Assembly: GCF_023093535.1 (NCBI RefSeq)
Contig: NZ_CP095757.1
Span: forward strand, 434,001-498,000
Direction: 5' to 3'
Source of the DNA: Halovivax limisalsi
Lineage (GTDB): Archaea; Halobacteriota; Halobacteria; Halobacteriales; Natrialbaceae
Length of the DNA stretch: 64,000 bases
In this document: one piece after another, positions 18,648 through 38,101 of the stretch
Layout: each line of letters opens with the position of its first letter
Numbering within the stretch: the first letter of the stretch is position 1
The notes under the pieces: model-generated
Told to the model about the DNA's origin: nothing
What the model saw: the letters and a program-made list of their open reading frames with translations, nothing else
Database searches by the model: none
Program-made: the position numbers and the translations under genes

Positions 18648-19325
18648 GCGTCTGTGACAGGCGAACACCGGCGTAAAAAGATATCTATTCTATTGAATTT
18701 CTGTTTGAAGTATTTATTTTATTCGGTAAGTCGATCGCGAGCCGCCGATCGCGGTGTTCGAACTCGGTCGCACCCCGCGGATCTGGCACGCACACTCTCG
18801 AGTGCCGTGATCCGACGCCCATCGCCGAACGGGACTCACCGGCATTCCAGTCATAGCGGATACACTAAAGGGGGCGTAAACGGTGCAGTGATATACGAAA
18901 TTCGGGCAATGGGCGCGACTGTAGAACCAACATGAGGGTCAGCAATCGGCCAAATTCCCCGGAAAAGACGCTACTATCGCAGTTCTCGAGCAATCGTTGT
19001 GATTCGCCGCGAAGAAGTGGAACGAACACCTGACGAGCCATCTGCTCGCAGTCGTTTAGATGGTTCGTGGGCCGCGCTGTAGGGTCGACCACCGACGGGG
19101 ACGCTTCGAAATCGGATCCGGTCCGGCACCGATTTCCCGACGCGCCGCACGGGAGCGGTGGCCGTCGTCTGTGCCGGCCGTGTTTCGTCTGCGAGTGGTC
19201 CGACGTGAGCGTGATGGAGCAACGTAGCGAGATCGGACCGGGCGGCGCCACCGGAGCGATCGATCCGTAAAACCGCCGGGTTGAAGCGCGTGGTCGTAGA
19301 CGGTCGCCACATATCAGGTGTCACT
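18648..19325. other. Low-GC intergenic region, no supported gene
   Basis: About 680 bases. The stretch 18680-18730 is very AT-rich (promoter-like for the membrane gene on the left). Between about 18880 and 19070 a minus-strand frame has protein-like composition (LPEFRISLHRL, QMARQVFVPLLRGE) but lacks a clear start and any recognised motif. It may be a fossil gene. Confidence 0.45.
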
Positions 19326-20333: not shown

Positions 20334-20385
20334 TTTCGGGCCGCCTAAAAGTAGGAAGTGTTTTATCCGTTTAGGCGAGCCTAAA
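20334..20385. promoter_or_regulatory. Paired iron-box operator/promoter of binding-protein block 1
   Basis: The downstream box at 20370-20385 is a perfect TTTAGGC-GA-GCCTAAA palindrome that ends four bases before the ATG at 20390. An upstream, weaker box at 20334-20349 (TTTCGGG-CC-GCCTAAA) lies exactly 36 bases away, and the TATA-like TTTTATC sits between them. The sequence resembles DtxR-family (Idr/SirR-type) metal-repressor sites. Binding at either box would block TBP or the start site, so repression under iron-replete conditions is inferred. Confidence 0.75.
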
Positions 20386-20389
20386 CCGT

Positions 20390-21652
20390 ATGGCGAACGA
20401 AGCCAACGAGCGGGCGACACCGACGCGAAGAGAGACGATCAAATACGGCGGGGTCGTTGCCGTCGGGGGGCTAGGCGCCGGCTGTCTCGGCGGCGGAGCA
20501 GACGCCGACGATCCCGCAGCGGACGCCGACGACCCCGCGGCGGGCGAGGAGGCGGCCGGGGCGGATGAAGAGACGACCGGGACGGATGCGGAAACCGGAG
20601 ACGACTCGACCGATCGGGCAGGATCCGGGTACTCGGTCTCGATGGAGCCGATGGGGACCGTCGCGTTCGAGGAGCCGCCGGACACCTGGCTCGCGTTTCT
20701 CAGCACGTACGGCGACATGGGGATCGCCCTGGGCAAGGCCGACGGGCTCAGAGGACTCTGGGATCCCGAGACGATGCCGACGGCGTTCTACGACGCCCTG
20801 CCGGGCGTTGACGTCTCGTTCGACGACGTCACGCCGATCGCGAACGGCGGCGAGTTCGACAAGGAGATCTTCTACGAACTCGACTGCGACGTCCACCTGC
20901 TCGATCCCAACTGGCTCGGCGTCCTGGCCGACGACTGGAGCGGGGACGACGCCGCGGAGATCGCCGCCGGAGTCGGACCGTTCCTCGGCAACTACATTCG
21001 ACGACGCGGCGACGACTGGCACGACTACCGCTACTACACGCTGTACGAGGCCTTCGAGATCGTCGCGGCGGCGTTCGACGAGACCGAGCGCTACGAGGCG
21101 TTCGCCGCGATCCACGACGAGATGCTGGCGACGATCGAGGAGACGCTGCCGCCGACCGCGGACCGGCCGACGGTCGGACTGCTGTCGGTCAACTCCGACT
21201 TCGAGGCGGGCTCGTTCTTCGCCTATCCCGTCCAGGCGGGGAACAACCACAAACAGTACCGCGACCTCGGGATGCGCGGCGCCTTCGACGACCACATCGA
21301 GGGGAGCTACGCGGAGTGGGACTACGAGCAATTACTCGAAGTCGACCCCGACGCGATCGTGTTCCAGTACGGCTTCACCCACGTCTCGGCCGAGGCGTTC
21401 GAGGCCCGCCTCGATGCCATGCGCGACGATCCGATCGGCAGTCAGTTGCAGGCGGTCCAGACCGATCGGCTCTACCGTGGCGGGGGCTCCTACCAGGGAC
21501 CGATCGTCAATCTCTTCCAGACGGAGGCGGCGGCGCGACAGTTCTATCCCGACGCGTTCGGCGAGTGGAACGGGATCGAGACGCTTCGCGAGGACGACCT
21601 CACGGTCTTCGATCGAACGCGAGTTGCGGACAGCATCAACGGAGACGGCTGA
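20390..21652 (+). CDS. ABC-type siderophore/iron binding lipoprotein 1 (subtype A)
   Basis: A 420-residue exported solute-binding protein of the FecB/BtuF-like class. The signal is a Tat type (TRRETIKYGG) with a lipobox GAGC, then an unusually long acidic D/A/E-rich tether (about residues 35-80) typical of haloarchaeal lipoproteins. The mature fold begins YSVSMEPMGTVAFEEPP. Lobe-two marks include the WHDYRYYTLYEAFE helix and the DPDAIVFQ strand. It is first of three consecutive binding-protein genes (gap of one base to the next) under an iron box. Its ligand is probably a ferric siderophore or heme-like chelate; that is inference from family and regulation. Confidence 0.85.
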   Translation: MANEANERATPTRRETIKYGGVVAVGGLGAGCLGGGADADDPAADADDPAAGEEAAGADEETTGTDAETGDDSTDRAGSGYSVSMEPMGTVAFEEPPDTWLAFLSTYGDMGIALGKADGLRGLWDPETMPTAFYDALPGVDVSFDDVTPIANGGEFDKEIFYELDCDVHLLDPNWLGVLADDWSGDDAAEIAAGVGPFLGNYIRRRGDDWHDYRYYTLYEAFEIVAAAFDETERYEAFAAIHDEMLATIEETLPPTADRPTVGLLSVNSDFEAGSFFAYPVQAGNNHKQYRDLGMRGAFDDHIEGSYAEWDYEQLLEVDPDAIVFQYGFTHVSAEAFEARLDAMRDDPIGSQLQAVQTDRLYRGGGSYQGPIVNLFQTEAAARQFYPDAFGEWNGIETLREDDLTVFDRTRVADSINGDG

Positions 21653-21653
21653 A

Positions 21654-22895
21654 ATGAGCGAACAAAACCACGCTGGACGGCACGCGGCACCCACGCGCAG
21701 GGACGCGCTCGCGTACGGCGGGGCGGTCACCGTGGGCGGACTGCTCGCGGGCTGTCTCGACGCTGCGGACGACGGCTCTGCGCCGAATTCGACGGAGCCG
21801 GAACCATCGACGGCGGACGAGCCGGCCGAAGATACCAGCTACTCGGTATCGATGGCCCCGATGGGCGACGTCACCTTCGACGAGGTCCCGAAGACGGCCT
21901 ACGCGTACAGTCCGCACTACGCCGACATGGCCGTCGCGTTCGGTCACGGGGATGCGATCGCATCGCTCGGGGCGCCGGACGCGTACACGACATCGATGAA
22001 TTACTACTACGAAACCGTCGAAGGCGCATCCGTCGACGCCGGGGACCTCACGGCGGTGTGGAACGACGGCGTCGATAAAGAGGTCTTCTACGACATCGGC
22101 GCGGACGTCCACTTCCAGGACCCGTGTTGGTTGCGCCAGTTCGCGGACAACTGGACCCGCGAGGACGTCGACGAGGTGCGACAGCAGATCGGTCCCTGGT
22201 TCGGCAACCGGTACAGCCGCGAGCACACGGACCCGCCGGCGGGGTGTCGGGACGGGTATCGATATTACACGCTCTGGGAACTCTCGGAGAAAGTCGCCGC
22301 CGTCTTCCGCGAGGAGAAGCGGTTCGAGGCGTTCCGGACGATGTACGAGCGCCTCGAAGCGGAGATCCGGACGAACCTCCCGCCCGAAGCCGAGCGCCCG
22401 ACCGTCGGACTCGTGACCATCAGGGACGGGACGTTCCGGCCGTACGAGCTGAACAACCCGGGATTCGCCAAGGCGCACCTCCGACCGCTCGGGGCGAAAG
22501 ACGCCTTCGCGGCGAGCGACCAGACCTACGACGAAAATCAGGACGGACGCCTCGACTACGAGGGGATGCTGTCGGTCGATCCGGACGTGATCCTCCACAG
22601 TCAGGGGGTCGGCGGCTTCTTCGACGTGGCGGCGATCCGGGAAACGCTGGAGGATCACCCGGTCGGGGGCGAACTCGCGGCCGTCCAGAACGACCGCGTG
22701 TACAGTTCCGGGACGCCGTTCCAGGGTCCCTTGATGAATTGCTTCCAGCTCGAAATGACGGCGAAGCAGCTCTACCCGGACGCCTTCGGGGAGTGGCCCG
22801 CCGACGGGAGCGAAGACGCCTACCCGGAAATCCCCACGGACGAACAACTCGTCGACCGAAATCGGATCGCGGACGGCATTCGCGGGGACATCTGA
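21654..22895 (+). CDS. ABC-type siderophore/iron binding lipoprotein 2 (subtype B)
   Basis: A 413-residue paralogue. The Tat signal TRRDALAYGG ends in lipobox LAGC, followed by a shorter acidic tether. The receptor core starts SYSVSMAPMGDVTFDEVP. By eye it groups with binding protein 4: both share a YSREH/LSRAH-x-x-PP segment, a YYTLWEL helix and an insertion TYDENQDG/TYAENYEG in the second lobe. It begins one base after the stop of protein 1 and ends one base before the start of protein 3, so the three are made from one mRNA. Confidence 0.85.
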   Translation: MSEQNHAGRHAAPTRRDALAYGGAVTVGGLLAGCLDAADDGSAPNSTEPEPSTADEPAEDTSYSVSMAPMGDVTFDEVPKTAYAYSPHYADMAVAFGHGDAIASLGAPDAYTTSMNYYYETVEGASVDAGDLTAVWNDGVDKEVFYDIGADVHFQDPCWLRQFADNWTREDVDEVRQQIGPWFGNRYSREHTDPPAGCRDGYRYYTLWELSEKVAAVFREEKRFEAFRTMYERLEAEIRTNLPPEAERPTVGLVTIRDGTFRPYELNNPGFAKAHLRPLGAKDAFAASDQTYDENQDGRLDYEGMLSVDPDVILHSQGVGGFFDVAAIRETLEDHPVGGELAAVQNDRVYSSGTPFQGPLMNCFQLEMTAKQLYPDAFGEWPADGSEDAYPEIPTDEQLVDRNRIADGIRGDI

Positions 22896-22896
22896 A

Positions 22897-24126
22897 ATGA
22901 GCGAACGGAACGACGCAGGACGATACGTCGCACCGACGCGCAGGGACGCCATCGCCTACGGCGGGACGGTCGCCGTGACCGGACTCCTCGCCGGCTGTCT
23001 CGGAGACGAAAGCGTGGGGTCGGAGCCGGAACCGACATCGGAAGGCGCCGACACCGAGCGTTCGGACGAACCGGCCGACACCGAGGACGCCAGTTACTCG
23101 GTGACGCTGTCGCCCGTGGGCGAGGTCAGCTTCGAGGAGCCCCCGGAGACCGTCTTCACGCGATTGACCCACCACGCCGGCATGGCGTTCGCGCTCGGCC
23201 GCGGGAATTCGATCACCGCGATGCACGCCCCGGACTACTACGACGGACTCTGGAACCAGTACGTCGAGCGCCTGCCAGGCGTCGAGCTCGATTGGAGCGG
23301 GCTGTACTCCTCCTGGCAACCGGAACAGGAGAAACTGTACGAACTCGACAGCGACGTCCACCTGGCCGATCCGGCCTGGATCGGCGTCCAGGACGCCTGG
23401 GACCGAAGGGAGCTCGACGAAATCGCCGAGCGTATCGCACCCTGGTTCGGCAACTCGTTGAGTGACAGTCACCAGGAACCCCAGGTCGCCTGGATCGACG
23501 ATTACGAGTACTACACGCTCTGGGAGCAGTTCGAGCTCGTCGCCGACGCGTTCCGGGAGCGAGGGCGCTACGAGGCACTGGCCGCGGTCCACGACGACCT
23601 CGTGGCGACGATCGAGGCGGGCGTTCCCCCCGAGGCGGAGCGTCCGACGGTCGCCGTCATCGCCGCTGCCGACGTCGATGAGATCTACACCTACCCCGTG
23701 GGGACGCCCGGATTCCTCAACGCACACACTCGGCCGCTCGGGCCGAGGGACGCGTTCGAGGGGGCGGTCGAACCGACGAGCGTCGTCGACTTCGAGACGC
23801 TCCTCGAGTACGATCCCGACGTCATCCTCCACCTCGGCGGGATGGAGCCGAACACCGACATGGCCGAGCGCCGGGACGTCTTCGCGGACGATCCCGTGGC
23901 TTCGCGGGTTGAGGCCGTGGAGAACGGCCGCGTCTACGCCCAGGGCGCGCGCTACCAGGGGCCGATTCTCAACCTCTTCCAGCTGGAGATGACCGCGAAG
24001 CAGCTCTACCCGGACGTCTTCGGCGAGTGGCCGACGTACGAGGACGGACCCTACCCAAAGATCCCCGAGGACGAACGGCTGTTCGACCGCCAGATCGTCG
24101 CGGACGCGATCCGCGGAGACCGATGA
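22897..24126 (+). CDS. ABC-type siderophore/iron binding lipoprotein 3 (subtype C)
   Basis: A 409-residue paralogue and last gene of block 1. The signal peptide is TRRDAIAYGG with lipobox LAGC; the first 15 residues closely copy those of protein 2 at DNA level, which points to exchange between the genes. The core starts YSVTLSPVGEVSFEEPP. It shares with protein 7 a 39-bp identical DNA patch at that point, the HLADPAW/HLTDPAY segment and NAHTRPLG/AAHTRPLG in lobe two. The C-terminus LFDRQIVADAIRGDR is the common end of the family. Confidence 0.85.
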   Translation: MSERNDAGRYVAPTRRDAIAYGGTVAVTGLLAGCLGDESVGSEPEPTSEGADTERSDEPADTEDASYSVTLSPVGEVSFEEPPETVFTRLTHHAGMAFALGRGNSITAMHAPDYYDGLWNQYVERLPGVELDWSGLYSSWQPEQEKLYELDSDVHLADPAWIGVQDAWDRRELDEIAERIAPWFGNSLSDSHQEPQVAWIDDYEYYTLWEQFELVADAFRERGRYEALAAVHDDLVATIEAGVPPEAERPTVAVIAAADVDEIYTYPVGTPGFLNAHTRPLGPRDAFEGAVEPTSVVDFETLLEYDPDVILHLGGMEPNTDMAERRDVFADDPVASRVEAVENGRVYAQGARYQGPILNLFQLEMTAKQLYPDVFGEWPTYEDGPYPKIPEDERLFDRQIVADAIRGDR

Positions 24127-24348: not shown

Positions 24349-26826
24349 ATGCGAGAGACACGGCGAACCTGGATCGCGGGAACGGGCGCGACGGTGCTGG
24401 GCACCGCCCTCGCGGGCTGTAGCGGAATTCTCGACAGAGACGACTCGACGGGCGACGGGGACGATCGCTCGACGGGCACCACGACCGAGACCGACGACGG
24501 GTCGGACGAGGGCGAGAGCGTACAACCGGAGCCGACGGACGTCGCGGTCGCCGCGGAGTGGAACGCGATTCGGACCCGGCTACGCGACCCGGTGATCCTC
24601 GGCCACGCCGACGAGTTCGCCGCCGGCGCATCCGTGGCGGGGGCCATCTTCGAGCGGTTCGAGCGAGCATCGGGCGAGGACAACGCCCACGAAATGCTCG
24701 AAGCGACGAGCGAGGGGGACTACGAGGGGTTCGAAGGCGGCCTGGCAGACCTCCGAGAGGCCCTCGAGGACGAGGACCTGGCGGGCGCACACGACGCGAT
24801 GCGCCGCGCCGACGAACACCTTCGGGACGCCCAGGGCGTCCTCCTGGGATCGGATTCGGTCCGATCGCTCAGCCTCCTCGTGATGGGCGCCCACGTCGCC
24901 GACGCGGCGCTGCTGGCGGCGATCGGCGATCTCACCGATGCGGCCGCGGAGTTTTCACACATCGGCGATCGCTTCGAGGAGAGCGGCCTGCGTGACGTAC
25001 TGACCGACGCCGACGGGGCGGCCGCCGACACGTTCGCCGGAGCGCTCGACAGCGCGGCGTCGGCCGCAGAAGCCGAGGATGGCGAGGCGGCGGTAGCGGA
25101 CGCGGCCGAGGCCTTCGAGGCGGCCACCGATGCCGGCTACGAACTCCGTTCCGAGCCGGTCGCCGGAGCCGGGCACCTCGCCGCGCTGCAGGCCAGGGGC
25201 TGGGACGCGGCCGCGCTCGCGACGCTGGGCGGGCCGTCCACGGCGTTCGCCCACGCGGCCGCCCTGACGATCTACCGGGCGCGAGTCCGCGACGCGGCTC
25301 GACTCTACGAGCGCGGTCACGCCGACGCCGCACGCGAGCGCGTCGAGACCGTCTTCGGCCACTTCGAGGGCGCCCGCGCCCACGAGGCCCTCGAAGACGC
25401 CAGCGAAGACGCCTACCAGCGGTTCGAGGACGACGGGCTGAGCGCGCTCTCGACGGCCATCGAGACCGACGACGCCGAGGCCGCGGCGTCGGCGATCGAG
25501 ACGATCGACGACGCGCTGGTCGACGGGATCGAGGCGCTGGGTCGCGGCGCCGAACCGGCGTTGCTGGAAGCGGGGTACTTCAAGGCGCGGATCGAGGACG
25601 CCCTCGAACGCTATCGACGCGGCGAGCGAGACGTCGCCGCCGAGACGGTTCGCGGCCTGTTCGAGACGTTCGAGGCCAACGAGGCCGACTTCCACGAGAC
25701 GCTCGAGGAGACCGACGAATCGCTGTACGAGCGGTTCGAGGACGAACACCTCGCCGGGCTGATCGCGGCCGTCGAGGACGGCGACGACGCGGCCGTCGAC
25801 GAGCACGTCTCCGGCATCCGGGAAACGCTGCTGGAGTTCGAGACGGCCGCCGGGTCCGTCGCGCAGGTGAGCGCGGTCGAGAGCGGGTACGTGGCTGCCC
25901 GGGTGTTCGACGCCGACGTCCTCGGCGTCATCGGTGAGCGCGAGCGTGCCGGCTCGCTGGTCCAGTCGGCCGTCCAGCACTTCGAGGAAGGTGCCGGTGG
26001 ATTCCACGAAGCGCTCGAAGCGGCCGATCACGAGCGGTACGAGTCCTTCGAAGCCGCCCTCGAGGGCGCGGCGAGCGCCGCGCGAGGGGACGGGAACGTC
26101 GGCGAACGCGCCCGGACGTTCAACGACGAGGCGGTCGCGGCGATCTACGCGGTGGTGGCGTCGGCCGGCGGGTCGTTCGGGACCGAAGCCACGACGATCG
26201 TACAGGAGACGTTCGCCCACTTCGAGGGCGCCCGCGTTCACGAACTGCTCGAAGCGGCCGACCGCGAGGCCTACGAGGGGTTCGAAGCGGCCCTCGAGGC
26301 GTACATCGGGGCGCTCGAATCGGGGTCGGGGATCGACGCTGCCGCCGATCGGTTCGCGGACGCGGCGCTTCGCGCGCAGTTTGCCGTCGCCGGGGCCCCG
26401 GACGCGGCGCCGGTCGGCGAGGCGGAGACCGGCGGCGGTGCAGGCCACGAGTCCGAGCTGGAGGGCGGTCCGAACGTCGTCGAGGGCGTCCCCGACGACG
26501 TCGACCACGTCGTCGATATGCAGGCCGTCACCTTCGAGCCCGACGACCTGACGATTTCGCAGGGCGACACCGTCGCCTGGACATTCGCTGGCGGTGAGCC
26601 ACACACCGTGACCGCGTACGAGGACGGAATCCCGTCGGAGGCGGCGTACTGGGCCTCCGGCGGGTTCGACTCCGAAGCGGCCGCTCGCGAGGGCTGGGAG
26701 GCGGGCCGCGGGGCCGTCCAGTCGGGCCAGTCGTACGTCCACACCTTCGAGACGACCGGGACCCACGAGTACGTCTGCATCCCGCACGAGGCCGCCGGGA
26801 TGGTCGGCTCCGTGACCGTCGAGTGA
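24349..26826 (+). CDS. Giant repeat lipoprotein with C-terminal cupredoxin domain (DUF5059-like)
   Basis: An 825-residue exported protein. The signal is twin-arginine (ETRRTWIAGTG) with lipobox LAGC, then an acidic D/T tether to about residue 60. Six helical repeats follow, each marked by F-x-x-FE ... HE-x-LE ... YE-x-FE (starting near residues 101, 203, 334, 438, 541 and 621; the second is degenerate). The C-terminal 120 residues form a plastocyanin/halocyanin-like domain with type-1 copper ligands in EPHTV and YVCIPHEAAGM (His, Cys, His, Met). It looks like the haloarchaeal DUF5059 family. A redox role at the cell surface in iron acquisition is inferred from the iron boxes and from being embedded between binding-protein blocks. 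Confidence 0.8.
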   Translation: MRETRRTWIAGTGATVLGTALAGCSGILDRDDSTGDGDDRSTGTTTETDDGSDEGESVQPEPTDVAVAAEWNAIRTRLRDPVILGHADEFAAGASVAGAIFERFERASGEDNAHEMLEATSEGDYEGFEGGLADLREALEDEDLAGAHDAMRRADEHLRDAQGVLLGSDSVRSLSLLVMGAHVADAALLAAIGDLTDAAAEFSHIGDRFEESGLRDVLTDADGAAADTFAGALDSAASAAEAEDGEAAVADAAEAFEAATDAGYELRSEPVAGAGHLAALQARGWDAAALATLGGPSTAFAHAAALTIYRARVRDAARLYERGHADAARERVETVFGHFEGARAHEALEDASEDAYQRFEDDGLSALSTAIETDDAEAAASAIETIDDALVDGIEALGRGAEPALLEAGYFKARIEDALERYRRGERDVAAETVRGLFETFEANEADFHETLEETDESLYERFEDEHLAGLIAAVEDGDDAAVDEHVSGIRETLLEFETAAGSVAQVSAVESGYVAARVFDADVLGVIGERERAGSLVQSAVQHFEEGAGGFHEALEAADHERYESFEAALEGAASAARGDGNVGERARTFNDEAVAAIYAVVASAGGSFGTEATTIVQETFAHFEGARVHELLEAADREAYEGFEAALEAYIGALESGSGIDAAADRFADAALRAQFAVAGAPDAAPVGEAETGGGAGHESELEGGPNVVEGVPDDVDHVVDMQAVTFEPDDLTISQGDTVAWTFAGGEPHTVTAYEDGIPSEAAYWASGGFDSEAAAREGWEAGRGAVQSGQSYVHTFETTGTHEYVCIPHEAAGMVGSVTVE

Positions 26827-28897: not shown

Positions 28898-28949
28898 CTT
28901 AGGATGGCCTAAAATTCGGAGCGTTTTTATTCGTTTAGGCTAGCCTAAT
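28898..28949. promoter_or_regulatory. Paired iron boxes of the flavoprotein-permease operon
   Basis: The boxes at 28898-28913 (CTTAGGA-TG-GCCTAAA) and 28934-28949 (TTTAGGC-TA-GCCTAAT) are exactly 36 bases apart. The TATA-like TTTTTATT lies between them, and the second box ends four bases before the ATG at 28954. Confidence 0.75.
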
Positions 28950-28953
28950 TCGC

Positions 28954-29124
28954 ATGGTGAACGATCGAGAAGGACGCGGGACGGTGGTCGGAGTCGGCCC
29001 GGACGTCGTCGCCCGTCACGCATCGACGTCGGAGACGCGTCTCGTGACGGCGGTCCGCGAACGGCGCCGGGACGACCCGATGACGAGCGTGGCATCGGTA
29101 GTCGACGCCGACGGAGGGAGCTGA
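28954..29124 (+). CDS. Small hypothetical protein, first ORF of the flavoprotein-permease operon
   Basis: A 56-residue ORF that begins four bases after the iron box and stops two bases before the flavoprotein start. It is polar and Arg/Asp-rich (VVGVGPDVVARHAS, VRERRRDDPMTSVAS) with no signal peptide or membrane span. It is short enough to be missed by automatic gene finding. Position as the first translated frame of an iron-regulated mRNA argues that it is real; it could also be only a leader ORF that sets translation of the next gene. Confidence 0.5.
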   Translation: MVNDREGRGTVVGVGPDVVARHASTSETRLVTAVRERRRDDPMTSVASVVDADGGS

Positions 29125-29126
29125 CC

Positions 29127-30167
29127 ATGGGGGCGATCGACGACACGCCAGGGGATACCGAATTCGAGTTCGACCGCGACGTGGTGATCGTCGGCGGGGG
29201 CCCGGCCGGCTGTTCGGCCGGAGTGTTCTGCGCCCGCGACGGACTTGAGACGCTCATCTACGACCGCGGGCGCTCGTCGATTCGACGGTGCGCCTACCTC
29301 GAAAACTACCTCGGGTTTCCGGCGGGGATCGACGTCGAGACGCTGTACGAACTGTACCACGACCACGCGGAAACCGCCGGCTGCGAGATCCGCGCCGACC
29401 TCGTCGAGTCCGTCGAACGGCGCGACGGCGAGGGATTCCGCCTCACGCCCCAGGAGGGCGACCCGGTCACCGCCCGGCGAGTGATCGCGGCCACGCGCTA
29501 CGACGGGGAGTACCTGCGCGGCCTCGACGACGCGATGTTCGAGACGCACGTCTACGACGGCGAGGAGCGCGAGCGGTTCGACCGCGAGTATCCCGATCGC
29601 GACGGGTCCACCCCGATCGAGGGACTGTACGTGGCCTCGCCATCGGCGGAGGCGGATATGCAGGCGATCGCGGCGGCGGGCCGCGGCGCGCGCGTCGCCC
29701 GTCGCGCGATCGCCGACGCCAGGATCGACGAGGGCTGGTGGGAAGCGGTCGCCGCGGGCGTCGACTGGGTCCGCCGCGACGCCGAACGCGACGGCGAGTG
29801 GACCGACCGCGACCGGTGGGTCGAGCACTTCGACGAGCACTACGGCGCGGACGCGCCCGTCGATCCCGCGTCCGATCGGTACCGGCGCGTCCGCGAGGCG
29901 AGTATCGACGAGTCCCTGGCGTCGTACATCTCGCCCGCGGAAATCGAGACGCGGACGGCGACCGGCCACGAGCGCCTCGCGTCCCACCTCGATCCGGAGC
30001 GGGTCGTCGCGGCGCTTCCGACCGACGCGCTCCTCGAGTCCGTCCCGGACGAGGACCTGCTCGCCGCGGCCGCGGCGATCGAATCCGGCGGCTCGGACGC
30101 GACGAGCGAAACCGACGGATCGGCCGGAGCGGTCGAATCTACCGGGCCGGCCGAGGAGGTCGACTGA
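29127..30167 (+). CDS. Thioredoxin-reductase-like FAD protein, probable iron/siderophore redox partner
   Basis: A 346-residue flavoprotein. The FAD-binding Rossmann motif VVIVGGGPAGCSAG (about residues 19-32) opens a thioredoxin-reductase-like fold with YLENYLGFPAGI next. Two typical features are missing: the catalytic CxxC and a second GxGxxA NAD(P)H-binding fold. A late GLYVASPSAEADMQAIAAAG resembles the second FAD contact. About 130 additional residues at the C-terminus (from DEGWWEAVAAGVDWV) are helical and acidic. A role in reducing ferric iron or modifying siderophores in the cytosol is inferred from its operon with a FecCD permease. It overlaps the next gene by one base. Confidence 0.75.
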   Translation: MGAIDDTPGDTEFEFDRDVVIVGGGPAGCSAGVFCARDGLETLIYDRGRSSIRRCAYLENYLGFPAGIDVETLYELYHDHAETAGCEIRADLVESVERRDGEGFRLTPQEGDPVTARRVIAATRYDGEYLRGLDDAMFETHVYDGEERERFDREYPDRDGSTPIEGLYVASPSAEADMQAIAAAGRGARVARRAIADARIDEGWWEAVAAGVDWVRRDAERDGEWTDRDRWVEHFDEHYGADAPVDPASDRYRRVREASIDESLASYISPAEIETRTATGHERLASHLDPERVVAALPTDALLESVPDEDLLAAAAAIESGGSDATSETDGSAGAVESTGPAEEVD

Positions 30168-30499
30168 TGACCGATCGGGGCCGCACCCGCGGCGGTGTCC
30201 GGCGGGTGTGGGGTGCGATCCGCTCCGCGGTCGACGTCGTCGTCCCGTCGACCGCTGCCACCGCGGCGGACAGCTACGGCTCGCCCGCGGTCGCCGACGA
30301 CGAGCTCCGCGTCGCCGGGTTCGACGGTGGGGCGTTCGCGACGTCGGCACACCTCGGCGGCGTGGACCCGTCGGTACACTTCTACGGAGTGGCGCGGGGG
30401 TCGGACAGGGTGGCTGCGCCGGCGGACAGACCTGCTGTGCGGGCGGACGGGGCGGTCCGGAGGGAGAATAGTGCGGCGGACGGTGAGAGCGATGCATAA
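30167..30499 (+). CDS. Hypothetical protein between flavoprotein and permease
   Basis: A 110-residue protein that begins with its ATG on the last base of the flavoprotein stop (TGATG) and overlaps the permease gene by eight bases. A basic, amphipathic start (GGVRRVWGAIRSAVDVVVPS) precedes a short beta-like middle (DELRVAGFDGGAFATSAHLGG) and a disordered Arg/Ala/Asp tail. I recognise no family. The tight coupling on both sides implies that it works with the flavoprotein or permease. Confidence 0.6.
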   Translation: MTDRGRTRGGVRRVWGAIRSAVDVVVPSTAATAADSYGSPAVADDELRVAGFDGGAFATSAHLGGVDPSVHFYGVARGSDRVAAPADRPAVRADGAVRRENSAADGESDA

Positions 30500-31859
30500 C
30501 GAGACGGCCGCCGGAGGCACAACCCAGCCCGGAACGCGCGACACCCGCCGGTTCGCCTGGCTGCTCGACCCGAAGCTGCTCACCACCGTACTCGTGAGTA
30601 GCGTGGTCGTGGCGCTGGCGGGGCTGGTGCAGGTGAGCTTCGGCGCCTACTCGATGACGATGGGCCAGGCGTGGGGCGCGGTCGTCGATCCGACCGTCCT
30701 GTTCGACCAGCAGGCCTGGAGCGCGTTCTTGCTCGGCGGCGAGGTCCCCGAGATGGACCCCGGAACCCTCATCGTCTGGAACATCCGCCTGCCGCGGGTG
30801 TTCGTCGCGGTCATCGTCGGGATGAACCTCGCGGTGTCGGGGGCGATCTTCCAGGCGATCACGCGCAACGAACTCGCGAGTCCGTTCATCCTCGGCGTCT
30901 CCTCGGGCGCCGGCCTGATGATCCTGCTGGCGCTCGTGGCGATCCCCTCGTTCGTCCTGGCGGTTCCGTTCGTCGCCGCGACCGGAGCGCAGGAGAACCC
31001 GCTGGGCTGGGCGGCGTTCGGCGCGTGGATCCTCGGGCTCGCGGTCGCCTGGCGGTACGGGCTCGGGCGGCGACGGATGCTCGCCGCGGGGCTGCTCGGG
31101 CTCGTCGGGCTCGCGGTCGCGTTCGTCGCCGTCCCCGGCGTCAGCCCGCCGGTCGGGATCGAGTCGTTGTCGGTCACGGTCTCGTCGTTACTGCCGATAC
31201 TCGCCGCCCTCGGGGGCGCGGTCGCGTTCCTCGTCGTCTACGCGATCGCCTGGAAGAACGGTACGTCGCCCGTCCGGCTGGTGCTCGCGGGCGTGATCGT
31301 CGGCACCTTCTTCGGGAGCCTCCAGACGGCGCTGTTCTACTTCGCCGACGACATCGGGGTCGTCCAGTCTGCGATCGCGTGGACGACGGGATCGCTGACG
31401 GGGACCGACTGGGAGCAGGTGCGCCTCGCACTCCCGTGGTCGATCGTCGCGATGGTGCTCGCCCTCGCCGGGGCCCGCCAGTGCAACGTGCTGTTGCTCG
31501 GCGAGCGCACCGCCAGATCGCTGGGGATGTCGATCGAGAAGGTCCGATTCGCGCTCTCGGGCGTCGCCGTGCTGGCGGCCGCCGCGAGCATCGCCGTCGC
31601 GGGCATCGTCGGGTTCGTCGGGCTGATCGTGCCCCACATGGTCCGCAACCTCGTCGGCAGCGATTACAAGAAGGTGATCGTCGGCTGTCTGTTCGTCGGA
31701 CCGGCGCTGCTGGTTTCGGCCGACGTCGGCGCTCGGTTGGGACTGAGCGTCCTCATGGATACCGATCGCCAGGTGCCGGTCGGCATCGTCACGGGGCTCG
31801 TCGGCGGGCCGTACTTCCTCTACCTCATGCGAAAGCAAGAGCACATGGGCCAGATCTGA
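30492..31859 (+). CDS. FecCD-family ABC permease, enlarged
   Basis: A 455-residue inner-membrane permease of the FecCD/BtuC family that imports siderophores, heme or cobalamin. Hallmarks are RLPRVFVAVIVGMNLAVSGA, QAITRNELASPFILGVSSGAG, the coupling-helix segment GERTARSLGM and the end ADVGARLG. Usual members have about 330-350 residues; here an extra hydrophobic stretch of roughly 90 residues (about residues 155-245, containing WAAFGAWILGLAVAWRYGLG) is inserted, adding two or three spans. The long polar N-terminus (about 25 residues) is also unusual. It is the only permease in the island; no ATPase subunit is encoded in the window. Confidence 0.88.
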   Translation: MHNETAAGGTTQPGTRDTRRFAWLLDPKLLTTVLVSSVVVALAGLVQVSFGAYSMTMGQAWGAVVDPTVLFDQQAWSAFLLGGEVPEMDPGTLIVWNIRLPRVFVAVIVGMNLAVSGAIFQAITRNELASPFILGVSSGAGLMILLALVAIPSFVLAVPFVAATGAQENPLGWAAFGAWILGLAVAWRYGLGRRRMLAAGLLGLVGLAVAFVAVPGVSPPVGIESLSVTVSSLLPILAALGGAVAFLVVYAIAWKNGTSPVRLVLAGVIVGTFFGSLQTALFYFADDIGVVQSAIAWTTGSLTGTDWEQVRLALPWSIVAMVLALAGARQCNVLLLGERTARSLGMSIEKVRFALSGVAVLAAAASIAVAGIVGFVGLIVPHMVRNLVGSDYKKVIVGCLFVGPALLVSADVGARLGLSVLMDTDRQVPVGIVTGLVGGPYFLYLMRKQEHMGQI

Positions 31860-32006: not shown

Positions 32007-32022
32007 TTTAGGTGAGCCTAAA
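32007..32022. promoter_or_regulatory. Iron box of binding-protein block 2
   Basis: TTTAGGT-GA-GCCTAAA ends three bases before the ATG at 32026. A TATA-like AATTACATAG lies directly upstream. In contrast with the three other promoters I found no second box at the 36-base spacing. Confidence 0.72.
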
Positions 32023-32025
32023 AAT

Positions 32026-33252
32026 ATGGAACGGACGGGGGGATGTGACCGCGGACGGACGCGACGGACGGCGATCAGGTACTGCGGGGCGGTCGCGGGG
32101 GGCGGACTGCTCGCAGGGTGTCTCGGAGAGGGCGACGACGAAGCACCCTCGAATTCGACCGAGCCAGAGCCTGCTACGACCGACTCGGCGGCCGAAGGCG
32201 CCGGCTACTCGGTGACGATGTCGCCGGTCGGCACCGTCGAGTTCGAGCGACCGCCGGAGACGGCGACGGTGTACGACGCGACGTGGGCCGACATGCTCGT
32301 CGGGCTCGGTCGCGGTGACGCGGTACTGTCGCTCGGGCATCCGGAGAACTTCTACGCCGGCTACTACGACCAGCTCGACGGCGTCTCCTTCGAGCCGGGC
32401 GACCTCGCGGCGCTCTACAACGACGGACTCGACAAGGAGCAGTTCTACGAACTCGACGCAGACGTTCACCACCTCGATCCCGTCAATATCGGGTACAGCG
32501 GCTGGTCGGGCTGGTCGATGACGGACGTGGACGAAATCGAAGCCCAGGTCGGGCCGTTCGTCGCCAACCGATTGAGTCGCGCGCACGCCGAGCCGCCCGC
32601 CGAGTACGACGGCGGCTACGAGTACTACACGCTCTGGGAGCTCACCGAGAAGATCGGGCGGGTCTACCAGAAAGCGGATCGAGCGGCCGAACTGAAGGCG
32701 ATCCGCGACGAGCTAGTCGCCGACATTACGGCGGCCCTCCCGCCCGCGTCCGAGCGACCGTCGGTCGGGCTGGTCGTGTTCTCGCCGGATACGGACTCGT
32801 TCTCGCCCTACAAGATCGACGCGCCGGGCTACGGCAAGGCGCAGTACCGCCCGTTCGACGTCGAGGACGCCTTCGCCGACAGCGACAAGACCTACGCGGA
32901 GAACTACGAGGGGAGCTACGACGTCGAGGGCCTCCTCGAGGTCGATCCCGACGTGATTATTCACAACTGGGACATCGAACCGAGCGATCGGACCCGCGCG
33001 ATGCGTGAGTTCTTCGCGGATGACCCCGTCGCCCGGGAACTCACCGCCGTCCGGACCGACCGCGTCTACGTCGGCGGGACGCCCACCCAGGGCCCGATCA
33101 CGAACCTCTTCCAGCTCGAGATGACCGCCAAGCAGCTGTTTCCCGAACAGTTCGGCGAGTGGAAGGGCGTCGGCGAACACGACCGAGACGAACGGCTGTT
33201 CGATCGCGACCGGCTCGCGTCGGTCATCACCGGGGGTGACGGAAATGCGTGA
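32026..33252 (+). CDS. ABC-type siderophore/iron binding lipoprotein 4 (subtype B)
   Basis: A 408-residue exported binding protein and first gene of the five-gene block. Signal: GRTRRTAIRYCG with lipobox LAGC, then a short acidic tether. Core: YSVTMSPVGTVEFERPP, HHLDPVNIGYSGWSGWS (residues around 145-160) and YYTLWELTEKI. It groups with protein 2 by lobe-two motifs (DAPGYGKAQYRP; TYAENYEG). The ATG at 32026 follows the iron box by three bases; the apparent longer reading from 31975 would pass through the operator. Its end overlaps the next gene by eight bases. Confidence 0.85.
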   Translation: MERTGGCDRGRTRRTAIRYCGAVAGGGLLAGCLGEGDDEAPSNSTEPEPATTDSAAEGAGYSVTMSPVGTVEFERPPETATVYDATWADMLVGLGRGDAVLSLGHPENFYAGYYDQLDGVSFEPGDLAALYNDGLDKEQFYELDADVHHLDPVNIGYSGWSGWSMTDVDEIEAQVGPFVANRLSRAHAEPPAEYDGGYEYYTLWELTEKIGRVYQKADRAAELKAIRDELVADITAALPPASERPSVGLVVFSPDTDSFSPYKIDAPGYGKAQYRPFDVEDAFADSDKTYAENYEGSYDVEGLLEVDPDVIIHNWDIEPSDRTRAMREFFADDPVARELTAVRTDRVYVGGTPTQGPITNLFQLEMTAKQLFPEQFGEWKGVGEHDRDERLFDRDRLASVITGGDGNA

Positions 33253-34441
33253 GGACGGGCCGCACGGGCCGCTGACGCGCAGACAGTACGTGACCTACGG
33301 CGGCGCGACCGTCGGCGCCGGAGTGACCGCGGGCTGTCTGGGTGGAGAGTCCGAGACCGACGACCCGACGACCGGTTCGGGCGACGGCGAAGACGGGACG
33401 GCGGCGGAGCCGGCCGAATCCGCCGACGGATCCTACTCCGTCACGATGGAGCCGGTCGGCACCGTCGCGTTCGAGCGGGTTCCGGAGACGATCGCGCCGT
33501 TTACGGCGGACTACGCGGACATGCTCGTCGCGCTCGGTCACGGGGACGCCGTCGCGACGACCTGGCTCCGCGAGCGCTACAAGACGCGACACTACGACCA
33601 GCTCGACGGCGTCTCGATCGATCTCGACAGCCTCACCGAACTGTGGAGCGACGGGGTCTCGAAGGAGCCGTTCTACGAGGTGGACGCCGACCTCCACCTG
33701 ATGGACCCGCACACCCTGACCGACTGGTTCCAGGCCTGGGACCGATCGGACCTCGCGGAGATCCGCGACACCGTCGCCCCCTTCCTCGGGAACGTCATCT
33801 TCCGGCGGACGGACGACTGGCACGACTACCGCTACTACACGCTGTACGAGGCGTTCGAGCGGGTCGCCGAGGTCGTTCAGGAGCGCGAGCGGTTCGAGGC
33901 GCTCAGGGACGTCCGCGACGACCTCGTCGCGACCGTCCAGGCGGACCTGCCCGCACCCGACGAGCGGCCGAACGCGGCCCTCGTCTGGGGCGGCGAGCAG
34001 CCCGACGAGTTCTTCCCGTACCGCCTGTCCGGGAACGGAGCGAACAAGGAGCACTTCCGCGCGCTCGGGCTTTCGGATGCGTTCGCCGGGACGGGGATCG
34101 ACGGCCTCTCGACGAGCGATTCGGGGAGCATCGATTACGAGGCGATGCTCGAGGTCGATCCGGATTCGCTCCTGGTCAGGGTCCACGGCGCGGGCCTCTC
34201 CCGCGAGGCGTTCGAGGAGCGCGTCGTCGAGTACATGCGCGATCACGAGGTGGGCCGCGAGCTCACGGCCGTACAGAACGACCGGGTGTTCCGCGGCGGG
34301 CCGATCTACAGCGGCCCCCTCCACAACCTGTTCATGATCGAGCGGTACGCGACGGCGTACTTCCCCGAGCGGTTCCCCGCGGACGAACTGTTCGACCGCC
34401 AGGCCGTATCGGCCATCGTCGACGGAGGGTTCGACGCGTGA
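33245..34441 (+). CDS. ABC-type siderophore/iron binding lipoprotein 5 (subtype A)
   Basis: A 398-residue paralogue of protein 1. Signal: LTRRQYVTYGG with lipobox TAGC, followed by a D/G/E-rich tether. Core: YSVTMEPVGTVAFERVP and the subtype-A helix WHDYRYYTLYEAFERVAEV. Over that helix its DNA is almost identical to protein 1. The ATG at 33245 lies in ATGCGTGA, overlapping the stop of protein 4 by eight bases; a GTG at 33236 is possible but less likely. It ends in a GTGA overlap with the next gene. Confidence 0.85.
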   Translation: MREDGPHGPLTRRQYVTYGGATVGAGVTAGCLGGESETDDPTTGSGDGEDGTAAEPAESADGSYSVTMEPVGTVAFERVPETIAPFTADYADMLVALGHGDAVATTWLRERYKTRHYDQLDGVSIDLDSLTELWSDGVSKEPFYEVDADLHLMDPHTLTDWFQAWDRSDLAEIRDTVAPFLGNVIFRRTDDWHDYRYYTLYEAFERVAEVVQERERFEALRDVRDDLVATVQADLPAPDERPNAALVWGGEQPDEFFPYRLSGNGANKEHFRALGLSDAFAGTGIDGLSTSDSGSIDYEAMLEVDPDSLLVRVHGAGLSREAFEERVVEYMRDHEVGRELTAVQNDRVFRGGPIYSGPLHNLFMIERYATAYFPERFPADELFDRQAVSAIVDGGFDA

Positions 34442-35613
34442 GCGAGACTGACGGGGCGGTTCGACGGGTTGCGCCGACGCGCAGACAAACGATCTCGGCC
34501 GGCGGGATCGCCGGGGCCTCACTCCTGGCCGGCTGTCTCGGCGACGAAGCGCCCGAAGGTGACGAGGAACCCGCCGGGAATCGCTCCTCGGCGGGCGACG
34601 GATCCTACTCGGTCACGATGGAGCCGGTCGGAACCGTCGCGTTCGAGTCCGTCCCCGAGCGCTGGATCGCCTACGATGGCGGCTACGCGGACATGGGCGT
34701 CGCGCTCGGGCAGGCCGACGGCATGACCGGCATCGGCGGTGCCGATCGGTACTACACGGACGTCTACGACGAACTGCCGGGCGTGAGCGTCGATCACGAC
34801 CGGCTCGAGGCGCATCCGGAGGTCCGGACCCGGGAGGAGTTCTACGAACTCGACAACGACGTCCACCTCTACGACCCCGGGATGCTGATCAACTGGTTCG
34901 ACTGGGACCAGGCAGACGTCGACGAGATCGCGGAGCAGGTCGGCCCGTTCGTCGGAAACCTGATCTTCCGGCGGTCGGACCAGTGGCACGACTACCGCTA
35001 CTACACGCTCTACGAGGCGTTCGAACGGGTCGCGACGGTGTTCCAGGAGCGCGAGCGATTCGAGGCGTTCGCCGACCTCCACGACGCGTTCGTCGCCGAC
35101 CTCCAGGCGCAGTTGCCGCCCGCCGACGAGCGCCCGAGCGTCCTGCTCACGTACGACGAGACGGCGACGCCCGACGCGTTCTCGCCGTATCGCCTCAACG
35201 ATCGCGGGACGAGCAAGAAGCAGTGGCGCGACCTCGGCGTCCAGGACGCGCTCGCGGGCACGGGCGTCGAGAATCTGAGCACGACCGATCGCGGCAAACT
35301 CGACTACGAGGCGTTGCTCGAACTCGACCCGGACGTGATCCTCCTTCGCGGCCACGAGCGAACGTCCGCCGCGCAGTTCCGCGACGAGATCGTCCCGTAC
35401 ATGGCGGAGCACCCCGTCGGCGGCGAGCTGACCGCCGTCGAGAACGGGCGCGTCTACCGCGGCGGCTACCTCCACCAGGGTCCGATCCACAACCTCTTTC
35501 TCACAGAGCGGGCGGCGAAACAGCTCTACCCCGACGTGTTCGGCGACGTGACCGACGATACGGAACTGTTCGACCGGCAGCGGGTTGCAGACATCGTCAC
35601 CGGAGAGATCTGA
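34438..35613 (+). CDS. ABC-type siderophore/iron binding lipoprotein 6 (subtype A)
   Basis: A 391-residue paralogue beginning at a GTG that overlaps the previous stop (GTGA), the only clear non-ATG start in the family. Signal: PTRRQTISAGG with lipobox LAGC; the tether is short. Core: YSVTMEPVGTVAFESVP; helix WHDYRYYTLYEAFERVATV. The C-terminus FDRQRVADIVTGEI is encoded by the first copy of the 67-bp direct repeat that brackets protein 7. Confidence 0.85.
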   Translation: MSETDGAVRRVAPTRRQTISAGGIAGASLLAGCLGDEAPEGDEEPAGNRSSAGDGSYSVTMEPVGTVAFESVPERWIAYDGGYADMGVALGQADGMTGIGGADRYYTDVYDELPGVSVDHDRLEAHPEVRTREEFYELDNDVHLYDPGMLINWFDWDQADVDEIAEQVGPFVGNLIFRRSDQWHDYRYYTLYEAFERVATVFQERERFEAFADLHDAFVADLQAQLPPADERPSVLLTYDETATPDAFSPYRLNDRGTSKKQWRDLGVQDALAGTGVENLSTTDRGKLDYEALLELDPDVILLRGHERTSAAQFRDEIVPYMAEHPVGGELTAVENGRVYRGGYLHQGPIHNLFLTERAAKQLYPDVFGDVTDDTELFDRQRVADIVTGEI

Positions 35614-35631
35614 GCATGAACGACGACACCA
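35565..35631. repeat. 67-bp perfect direct repeat, copy 1
   Basis: Runs from the last codons of binding protein 6 through the stop and spacer into the first codons of protein 7. It is identical to 36797-36863 without a mismatch; offset 1232 bases. Confidence 0.9.
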
Positions 35632-36845
35632 CCGACGCGACTCGAACGGGTGTACCGACGCGACGAGACGCGATCGCGTCCGGCGGCGCGGTCGTCGGCG
35701 GGCTGCTGGCCGGTTGTATCGGTGCGGACGGGAGCGGGGACGGCGACAGCGAGGCCGCGCCGACAGAGACGGGAACCGACGGCGGAAGCGAAGTGGCCGA
35801 GGACGGGGGCTACAGCGTTTCGATCTCGCCCGTGGGCGAGGTCAGCTTCGAGGAGCCCCCGGAGCGCGTCTATACGGGGTTGCCGAATACCGCGGACATG
35901 GCGATCGCCGCGGGGCAAGCCGAGGGGATCACCTCGGTCTACTTCCCCGAATACCACGGAACCCTGCTGAACAACTTCTACGAACGGCTTGACGGCGTCT
36001 CGTTCGAGTGGGACGGGCTCACCGATTCGTGGAAGCTCGACAAAGAGGGCTTCTACGAACTCGACAGCGACGTCCACCTCACCGATCCGGCCTACGCGTC
36101 GACCCTGGAGACCATTGACGCCGACGACGTCGCGGAGATCGGCGAGGAGATCGCGCCGTGGATCGGCAACTACTACAGCAACACGCACTCGACGCCGCCG
36201 ACGAAGTGGGCGGACGATTACCAGTACTACGGACTCTGGGAGATATTCGAGACCGTCGCGAGCGTGTTTCGGTCCACGGAGCGCTATCGGGCCCTGCACG
36301 AGGAGTACCGGAACCTCCGCTCGACGATCGAAGCGGGGCTGCCCCCGAGCGACGAGCGGCCGACCGTCGCCCTCACGTTTCCGACCGAAGACAGCATTGG
36401 GATCTTCCACCTGAACGCGCCGGGATTCCTCGCCGCTCACACCCGGCCGCTCGGTGCCGTCGACGCGTTCGCCGATGCGGAATTCGAGCAAACCGCCCAG
36501 ATCGACATGGAGGCGATGGCGGAGGCGGACCCAGACGTGATCCTCGCCCTGTTCCGGCTGGCGTCCGGGTACAGCATCGAAGCGACGAGAGATCGCTTCG
36601 AGACCGATCCGGTCGGACGGACGATATCGGCCGTGGAGGCCGGCCGGATATTCTCACAGGGGATCAGGTATCAGGGGCCGATCACCACCCTCTTCCAGCT
36701 CGAAATGACAGCCAAGCAACTGTATCCTGACCGCTTCGGGGAGTGGCCGGGATACGTCGACGGCGAACCGTACCCGGAACTACCCGAAGCCGAGCGACTG
36801 TTCGACCGGCAGCGGGTTGCAGACATCGTCACCGGAGAGATCTGA
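35616..36845 (+). CDS. ABC-type siderophore/iron binding lipoprotein 7 (subtype C)
   Basis: A 409-residue paralogue of protein 3. Signal: PTRRDAIASGG with lipobox LAGC, then a G/D/E/T tether. Core: YSVSISPVGEVSFEEPP, encoded over a 39-bp patch identical to protein 3, then the HLTDPAY segment and YYGLWEIFETV helix. Its first eight codons and its last 14 codons are the same as the matching ends of protein 8 and protein 6 respectively, through the 67-bp repeat. The gene therefore sits like a cassette between two identical junctions. Confidence 0.85.
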   Translation: MNDDTTDATRTGVPTRRDAIASGGAVVGGLLAGCIGADGSGDGDSEAAPTETGTDGGSEVAEDGGYSVSISPVGEVSFEEPPERVYTGLPNTADMAIAAGQAEGITSVYFPEYHGTLLNNFYERLDGVSFEWDGLTDSWKLDKEGFYELDSDVHLTDPAYASTLETIDADDVAEIGEEIAPWIGNYYSNTHSTPPTKWADDYQYYGLWEIFETVASVFRSTERYRALHEEYRNLRSTIEAGLPPSDERPTVALTFPTEDSIGIFHLNAPGFLAAHTRPLGAVDAFADAEFEQTAQIDMEAMAEADPDVILALFRLASGYSIEATRDRFETDPVGRTISAVEAGRIFSQGIRYQGPITTLFQLEMTAKQLYPDRFGEWPGYVDGEPYPELPEAERLFDRQRVADIVTGEI

Positions 36846-36863
36846 GCATGAACGACGACACCA
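36797..36863. repeat. 67-bp perfect direct repeat, copy 2
   Basis: Spans the junction of binding proteins 7 and 8 and is identical to 35565-35631. Together the two copies bracket protein 7 in direct orientation. Confidence 0.9.
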
Positions 36864-38101
36864 ACGACGCGAATCGATCGGCGGCACCGACGCGCAGAGA
36901 GACGATCACCTACGGCGGCGCGGTCGCCATCGGCGGGCTGCTGGCCGGCTGTATCGGTTCGGACGGAAGCGGAGACGGCGAGGAGACGCCGAACGAGACG
37001 GCGGCGGGACCGGACGAGGCGGCCGACCCGGACGGGGAGACGGCATCCGGATCGACGTCCTACGAGGCCTGCATCGAGCCGGCGGGTTGTCAGACGTTCG
37101 AGGCGGTCCCCGAGACCTACATCGTGAACAACGGCGAGTGGGCCGACATGGCCTTCGCGCTCGGCCAGCGCGAGGGCTTTCTGACGGCGACGAACATGAT
37201 CCCGGGGTTCCTGTTCGAACCGTTCGGGCTCGACGTCCCGCCCGAGGACGAAACCACGTCGCTCTCGGCGGCCGACTGGGACAAGGAGATCTTCTACGAA
37301 CTGGATCCCGACGTCATCCTGATGGATCCGACGTACATGCACGAGACGGGCTGGGACGACGCCTGGGACGAGGCTGATACCGAGGAGCTCGCCGAACACG
37401 TCGCGCCGTTCTTCGGCAACAACATCCTTCGCCGGCGCGAGTTCCACGACTACCGGCTCTACACGCTGTACGAGGCGTTCGAACGGCTCGCCGACCTCTT
37501 CCAGGAACGCGAGCGCTACGAAGCGCTCGCGGCCGTCCACGAGGACGTCCAGCAGACGGTGCGGGCGCGGCTCCCGCCCGAAGCCGACCGCCCGTCGATC
37601 GCGCTCGTCAACAGCGCCTCCGACCCCGCCGAGGGGACGTTCTATCCGATGAACACGCAGGTCGAGGGCGTGGAGATGAAACCCTACCGGGACCTGGGCA
37701 TCGAGAGCGCGTTCCCCGACTCGATGGTCGACGCGGGAACCATCGACTACGAGCAACTGCTCGAGGTCGACCCCGAGATCATCGTCGTCCACTGGGGGAT
37801 CGGCACGACCGGCGAGACGGACGGCTTCTCCGCGGCGGCGTTCCGCGAGCGGTACGTCACCCCGATGGCCGAAGACGCCGTCGGCAGCCAGCTCACGGCC
37901 GTCCGGAACGACGCCGTCTTTCCCGGCGCCTTCGGCTCGCAGGGGCCGCTCGTGAACCTGCTCCAGACCGAGCTGGTCGCCCGGCAGCTGTACCCCGAGA
38001 CGTTCGGCGCGTTCGATCCGGATCGCTTCCCCGACGTTCCGGCGGACGATCGGCTGTTCGACCGCCAACGGGTGAGAGACATCGTCGACGGCGAGGTCTG
38101 A
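36848..38101 (+). CDS. ABC-type siderophore/iron binding lipoprotein 8 (subtype A, divergent)
   Basis: A 417-residue paralogue and last gene of block 2. Signal: PTRRETITYGG with lipobox LAGC. The core start is divergent (YEACIEPAGCQTFEAVP instead of YSV-S/T-M-x-PxG), with two additional cysteines that could form a disulfide or bind metal. It has a longer loop PFGLDVPPEDETTS and the helix FHDYRLYTLYEAFERL that places it nearest subtype A. Ends FDRQRVRDIVDGEV. The divergent ligand-side N-terminal lobe suggests another substrate from its neighbours. Confidence 0.83.
   Translation: MNDDTNDANRSAAPTRRETITYGGAVAIGGLLAGCIGSDGSGDGEETPNETAAGPDEAADPDGETASGSTSYEACIEPAGCQTFEAVPETYIVNNGEWADMAFALGQREGFLTATNMIPGFLFEPFGLDVPPEDETTSLSAADWDKEIFYELDPDVILMDPTYMHETGWDDAWDEADTEELAEHVAPFFGNNILRRREFHDYRLYTLYEAFERLADLFQERERYEALAAVHEDVQQTVRARLPPEADRPSIALVNSASDPAEGTFYPMNTQVEGVEMKPYRDLGIESAFPDSMVDAGTIDYEQLLEVDPEIIVVHWGIGTTGETDGFSAAAFRERYVTPMAEDAVGSQLTAVRNDAVFPGAFGSQGPLVNLLQTELVARQLYPETFGAFDPDRFPDVPADDRLFDRQRVRDIVDGEV

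Follow-up and report, generated by a model that had tools for sequence, protein, structure and literature searches.

A binding-protein gene set in a duplicated junction suggests gain, loss and exchange of entire genes in haloarchaeal siderophore-type arrays through recombination between similar gene ends

The array lies on a chromosome of 3.89 Mb that was assembled as a single contig and is 99% complete, and we analysed a stretch of 64 kb from it (434001-498000), referred to here as the window. The window contains eight paralogous genes for Peripla_BP_2 lipoproteins with a Tat signal and a lipobox, arranged in two clusters, g1-g3 and g4-g8 (Table 1). The products of g3-g8 scored 36.4-53.7 bits against the Peripla_BP_2 profile (PF01497), for which the curated cut-off is 27.5. 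The proteins are of the FhuD/BtuF type, whose solved relatives are Fe-hydroxamate and iron-uptake binding proteins, and the array is predicted to encode siderophore-type binding proteins. Palindromes of the TTTAGGnnnnCCTAAA type, which look like an iron-regulator box, were found at 20360-20389 (before g1), 28899-28955 (before the FAD reductase region), and 32009-32025 (before g4). Haloarchaeal fhu genes are reported to have ferR signals upstream (PMC11349517), and the palindromes in the window may be the same signal. A HEAT-repeat protein is encoded at 19281-20330, directly upstream of g1-g3, and HEAT-repeat genes also adjoin the arrays of Natrinema and Haloterrigena. A DUF5059 and plastocyanin-like protein is encoded at 24349-26826, downstream of the g1-g3 cluster.

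Table 1. Features of the binding-protein gene clusters and of the duplicated junction (window coordinates)
Feature	Position	Strand	Remark
g1-g3 cluster	20390-24126	+	other cluster of this gene family
g1	20390-21652	+	
g2	21654-22895	+	
g3	22897-24126	+	
FAD-dependent reductase-like gene	29127-30167		precedes the g4-g8 cluster
FecCD permease	30492-31859		directly upstream of g4
g4-g8 cluster	32026-38101	+	
g4	32026-33252	+	first gene of the Peripla_BP_2 array; iron-box-like palindrome (TTTTAGGTGAGCCTAAAA) before it
g5	33245-34441	+	Peripla_BP_2 Tat lipoprotein
g6	34438-35613	+	Peripla_BP_2 Tat lipoprotein; GTG start
g7	35616-36845	+	Peripla_BP_2 Tat lipoprotein
g8	36848-38101	+	Peripla_BP_2 Tat lipoprotein
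Perfect 67-bp repeat, left copy	35565-35631	+	final 49 nt of g6 with its stop codon, spacer GC, 16 nt from the start of g7
Perfect 67-bp repeat, right copy	36797-36863	+	final 49 nt of g7 with its stop codon, spacer GC, 16 nt from the start of g8
Wider duplicated junction (g6 tail, Tat/lipobox head), left copy	35565-35717	+	aligns to the single g6-g8 junction of locus L163
Wider duplicated junction, right copy	36797-36945 (right edge approximate)	+	aligns to the same L163 junction
g7 core (ligand-binding lobes), putative inserted or deletable unit	35718-36796	+	no counterpart in the L163 array; rare, patchy subfamily

A preliminary description of the locus had reported a perfect direct repeat on the two sides of g7, running from the end of one gene through its stop codon and the intergene into the start of the next. 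The two 67-bp copies were found to be exactly identical, with an extension of 0 bases on either side, and to span the g6-g7 and g7-g8 boundaries as described, once the starts of g6 (GTG at 34438), g7 (35616), and g8 (36848) had received minor corrections. Each copy consists of the last 16 sense codons and the stop of g6 or g7, a 2-nt spacer (GC), and ATGAACGACGACACCA of g7 or g8. This is the longest exact repeat in the window, the next ones (41, 39, and 26 bp) all being between genes of the same family, and the junction sequence occurs at two places only in the whole genome. The 41-bp repeat is shared by g1 and g5 (21011-21051 and 33812-33852) and the 39-bp repeat by g3 and g7 (23110-23148 and 35826-35864); both lie within the coding cores of separate clusters and possibly reflect exchange between clusters about 12 kb apart. 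A junction collapsed or duplicated during assembly is an exceedingly improbable source of the 67-bp repeat, since the copies flank different genes and diverge directly after the 67 bp, all reading frames are open, and the genome is a single contig of the completeness given above.

The strong divergence described for the neighbouring genes was confirmed for their bodies, which share only ~53-55% DNA identity. In steps of 20 codons along g6 and g7, identity stays at 40-65% until it reaches 100% at the end, and g7 and g8 are 83-88% identical across their first 40 codons, falling mostly to 33-67% thereafter. The 67 bp are the perfect stretch within a 144-nt repeat, 87% identical, that reaches the lipobox of g7 and g8. 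This wider repeat (~150 nt) is composed of the g6 tail, TGAGC, and the Tat/lipobox head of g8. Its right half is diverged by about one quarter while the left 67 bp are perfect, indicating that a single clean event cannot account for everything. Insertion and the last homogenisation may therefore be separate events, the perfect 67 bp possibly having been renewed after the insertion. The repeat had been called recent, which fits the perfect 67 bp but not the flanking head homology.

The junction was compared with 211 family genes from haloarchaeal loci. Among 214 pairs of family genes from the same locus, g6/g7 had by far the longest stop-aligned exact run, 67 bp as against 22 bp in the next pair, and its tail identity over 51 nt was 49 (same-locus median 32, 99th percentile ~47). 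In 21,941 cross-locus pairs, the longest runs resembled matches between related species. When any register was allowed, one other adjacent pair had a junction run of more than 26 bp, that of Haloarcula pellucida, with runs of 59 and 55 bp at the 3' ends. There, a g3-like gene and a g7 ortholog (L059, 8742-11245) are nearly identical over their last ~150 nt, in which both exact runs lie; this is an independent case involving the same g7 subfamily. In the heads of genes in other arrays, runs of 60 bp (L115) and 41 bp (L064 and L085) were found. The end runs in Haloarcula pellucida and the head runs of 41-60 bp in other arrays indicate that exchange at gene ends recurs. In Haloarcula mannanilytica, the RRETPT motif is duplicated within the signal peptide of the g8 ortholog, seen as a 30-bp overlapping exact repeat with an 18-bp offset (L113, 12483-12530).

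These comparisons bear on whether the tail and the start were simply kept for function, through the C-terminal helix, stop-start coupling, or the Tat signal, so that the repeat would be convergence or retained ancestry. The family tail LFDRQRVADIIxGE is indeed conserved throughout, and tail DNA is similar at many junctions. However, the tail shared by g6 and g7 is identical at all third positions, its 49/51 is unequalled among the other same-locus tail pairs, the repeat extends into the poorly conserved start MNDDT, and the 67 bp are missing from most junctions of related species. Such an origin is very unlikely, and constraint as the sole cause was ruled out by the junction background, both in other arrays and in the stop-aligned runs. 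The 67-bp repeat is neither chance nor constraint; the same junction is absent from other boundaries, in agreement with the earlier preference for recent exchange over constraint.

The tail of g7 is 100% identical to that of g6 (orthologs 60-87%) and its head is 84% identical to that of g8 (orthologs 65-74%), whereas its core shares 49-53% with both g6 and g8. In a tree of the cores, g6, g7, and g8 fall into three old subfamilies, each having orthologs in other genera. The core of g6 has ~80% identity with Halosimplex and Halovivax orthologs, that of g8 80% with Haloarcula mannanilytica, and that of g7 is most like Halarchaeum (73% at the amino acid level). Tandem duplication, one of the origins proposed at first, is not supported by these data in the form proposed, because g7 belongs to an old, distinct subfamily with its closest relatives in other families and only its ends match its neighbours. 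A recent tandem duplication of g6 or g8 was likewise ruled out, as the cores belong to different old subfamilies. The g7 subfamily was detected at E<=1e-135 in 7 of the 392 genomes of the order, its own included. Within its own family it was found in one other genome among the 125 searched, at 57%, and its best relatives, at 68-69%, belong to another family, the best named one being Halarchaeum nitratireducens. The GC3 of the g7 core (0.858) is the lowest of the eight, the others ranging from 0.877 to 0.940. The patchy, out-of-family relatives together with the lowest GC3 point to horizontal spread of the g7 subfamily. In an AlphaFold model of g7 (mean pLDDT 88), residues 1-58, which form the head, are disordered and the last helix (398-405) is inside the exchanged tail. 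The ends that are exchanged would thus border the fold, with the core passed on in one piece, in agreement with end exchange that spares ligand specificity.

An array without g7 was found in a genome of another family (L163, genome G379), in which g5 (71%), g6 (70%), and g8 (70%) stand in the same order. Its junctions are the same as those of the window, -4 and 2 nt, the g6-g8 junction being of 2 nt. In blastn comparisons, window positions 33431-35717 and 36798-38101 both aligned to L163 and overlapped there by ~149 nt, and in a base-by-base alignment the single L163 junction matched both window copies. One L163 junction thus corresponds to two in the window, which resembles a g5-g6-g8 array with the g7 core inside a junction turned two. 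When the window flanks were joined at the repeat in silico, the g6 and g8 proteins were unchanged and the sequence was 1232 bp shorter. Both the cassette-like presence or absence of g7 and its frame-preserving loss by one crossover, as anticipated in the preliminary description, are therefore supported, the former by L163 and the latter by the in silico joining. The direction may have been insertion in the window rather than loss in L163. As L163 belongs to a different family (~76% DNA identity), g5-g6-g8 may instead have been assembled there independently, or g7 may have been lost there. The g7 orthologs and the L163 g6 alike end in VADIVNG[ED]I, so that the tails alone give no copying direction. 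Among the same-genus genomes, the array is absent in G001-G003 and G004 has a different array.

A second reading is that g7 is a long-standing resident and that only its junction was recently overwritten by one conversion tract, from the g6 tail and g7 head to the g7 tail and g8 head or the reverse, with no recent insertion. One tract covering 67 bp or more is enough to account for the perfect repeat, heads in other arrays have been homogenised without gain or loss of genes (the runs in L115, L064, and L085 above), and in Haloferax volcanii the genome copies are known to undergo efficient gene conversion (PMC11276520). By itself, however, such conversion leaves unexplained both the absence of g7 from the parallel g5-g6-g8 array and the near-absence of its subfamily from the family, and we regard it as a serious but rather unlikely account of the locus as a whole.

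Turning to other genomes, we compared an array whose flanks are conserved among N. versiforme JCM 10478, N. versiforme BOL5-4, H. turkmenica, and H. salifodinae; it has eight, five, three, and two genes, respectively. The difference of eight versus five is between two genomes named N. versiforme, in which the array itself is only ~91% identical. Gene 1 of BOL5-4 combines the head of JCM 10478 gene 1 (V1) with the core of its gene 3 (V3), the switch lying at nt 100-105, just past the lipobox (dlogL 70.4 versus <=11.4 in 500 permutations). Gene 2 of H. turkmenica combines the core of JCM gene 6 (V6) with the tail of gene 7 (V7), with the switch at nt 1135-1138 of 1182, within the last 45 nt (dlogL 23.4 versus 8.5 in permutations), and gene 1 of the same genome has a tail from JCM gene 5. 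Gene 4 of BOL5-4 and gene 2 of H. salifodinae have tails resembling that of gene 7, but a single changepoint fits best in the head rather than in the tail. In Halorubrum, cores from two different subfamilies occupy the same slot in cibi/aquaticum and in halodurans, where the upstream flank is up to 90%, the head 82-93%, and the tail with the start of the next gene up to 95-98% identical. Chimeric genes whose breakpoints fall inside or beside the shared blocks are thus present in N. versiforme, H. turkmenica, and Halorubrum. Gene orders are also scrambled between genomes, for example g6-g3 and g3-g6, or g5-g6 and g6-g5. A scan for head switches through upstream-flank identity returned mostly conserved-tail matches and was set aside. 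The array at L177 (G375:C59:1-16000) has at least 11 family genes in tandem, one of them with an odd arginine/serine-rich insertion in the signal peptide; at the contig end, the final bases of the strand read (CTGTCTCTTATACACATCT) resemble leftover sequencing-adapter sequence.

A discrete, patchily distributed unit between perfect direct repeats is also what a site-specific or transposon-like cassette would look like, with the repeat as a target duplication or as the attachment site of a dedicated recombinase. Yet the repeat is ordinary coding sequence conserved family-wide, the inverted repeats are weak only (17 nt at 76%), and the breakpoints in other genomes vary in position and sit where paralogs are alike. 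We found no recombinase gene inside the g7 unit and no defined core site. With neither a recombinase in the unit nor a convincing site, this extremely improbable explanation was rejected.

Homogenisation of the ends was quantified in 60 neighbouring gene pairs outside the window, forming 43 independent groups, with matched pairs from different genomes as the reference. Neighbours had excess DNA identity in the heads (+0.077, p 2e-8) and in the tails (+0.038, p 4e-6). Three of the four core segments showed no excess, and one showed +0.009 (p 0.014). Within a locus, adjacent genes had a greater excess at the ends than genes standing apart, which argues against a genome-wide codon or signal-peptide preference as its cause. 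The tail excess was weak at third codon positions (p 0.009 by groups, 0.24 by loci), indicating that protein-level constraint contributes to the similarity of the tails. The ends of neighbours are homogenised, and the cores are essentially not.

Given the repeat, the chimeric ends of g7, the g7-less array elsewhere, and the like breakpoints in other genomes, we consider it probable that the g7 core is set in a duplicated g6-g8 junction and that homologous recombination at paralog ends adds, deletes, and swaps genes. The paralogs, as a set of interchangeable siderophore-type binding proteins, would be alike in DNA only at a 5' head of ~100 nt (Tat signal to lipobox) and a 3' tail of ~50 nt (LFDRQRVADIIxGE-stop), fused across junctions of a few nucleotides, and these ends could serve as footholds for ordinary homologous recombination. 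The core of g7, from a horizontally spread subfamily, would have ended up in a pre-existing g6-g8 junction and left a junction copy on each side, the perfect 67 bp being the portion most recently created or refreshed. Crossing over between the two copies would remove g7 precisely, with g6 and g8 still in frame, genes could be gained by unequal crossover, and conversion would keep the ends alike. The agent was presumably RadA-type homologous recombination, and the selected benefit may be an altered repertoire of iron compounds. More tentatively, and with somewhat less than even confidence, we propose that haloarchaeal siderophore-binding arrays are a family-wide cassette system, in which standard ends kept alike by conversion act as sockets, ligand-binding cores from any haloarchaeon are inserted, exchanged or lost in frame, and homologous recombination together with gene transfer renews the repertoire of usable iron carriers.

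Our comparisons with other species suggest that recombination between similar gene ends brings entire genes into these arrays, removes them and exchanges them. The window would then preserve a perfect footprint of a kind of step that is normally deduced only after the fact, in which a complete binding-protein gene enters or leaves an array where a junction is present twice. Such a process would explain why gene order and content are scrambled in haloarchaeal arrays despite the age of the proteins and, if it operates as proposed, would account for how such archaea reshuffle which iron compounds they capture. It would also extend to archaea a mode of tandem-gene evolution that we found described only for staphylococcal and streptococcal clusters; in the open-licence papers searched, there was no report of such recombination for archaea or for ABC binding proteins. 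As in the window, Haloferax volcanii has multicopy, iron-responsive siderophore ABC binding proteins, with 11 copies of FhuD-type paralogs (PMC11349517), and the accessible sections of that paper do not address tandem recombination.

The window array shares with recombining clusters of the lpl, esaG, and tipC kind the presence of tandem paralogs with short blocks of high identity. In the lpl lipoprotein cluster of Staphylococcus aureus (Tsuru & Kobayashi 2008, as described in PMC9484751), tandem paralogs likewise recombine at a common stretch, the exchanged unit comprises the 3' part of one gene, the intergene, and the 5' part of the next, and gene number varies among strains. The lpl foothold of ~130 nt, however, is in the middle of the gene and the ends vary, whereas here the footholds are the ends and the ligand-binding core varies. 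In tipC, similarity blocks are at the 5' and 3' ends, a layout like that of the window, and recombination takes place between tandem paralogs, and in esaG copies are gained and lost (Garrett et al. 2022, PMC9484751). Those are immunity genes of Firmicutes, in contrast to the archaeal ABC-transporter binding proteins, whose cores are very old and whose order differs between genera. The csa1 'gene accordions' of S. aureus also change copy number in a lipoprotein gene array, and their amplification rises when RecA is induced (PMC7360770). The csa1 paralogs are 61-80% identical overall (PMC7360770), whereas in the haloarchaeal array only the ends are strongly homologous and what varies is which of the cores is present.
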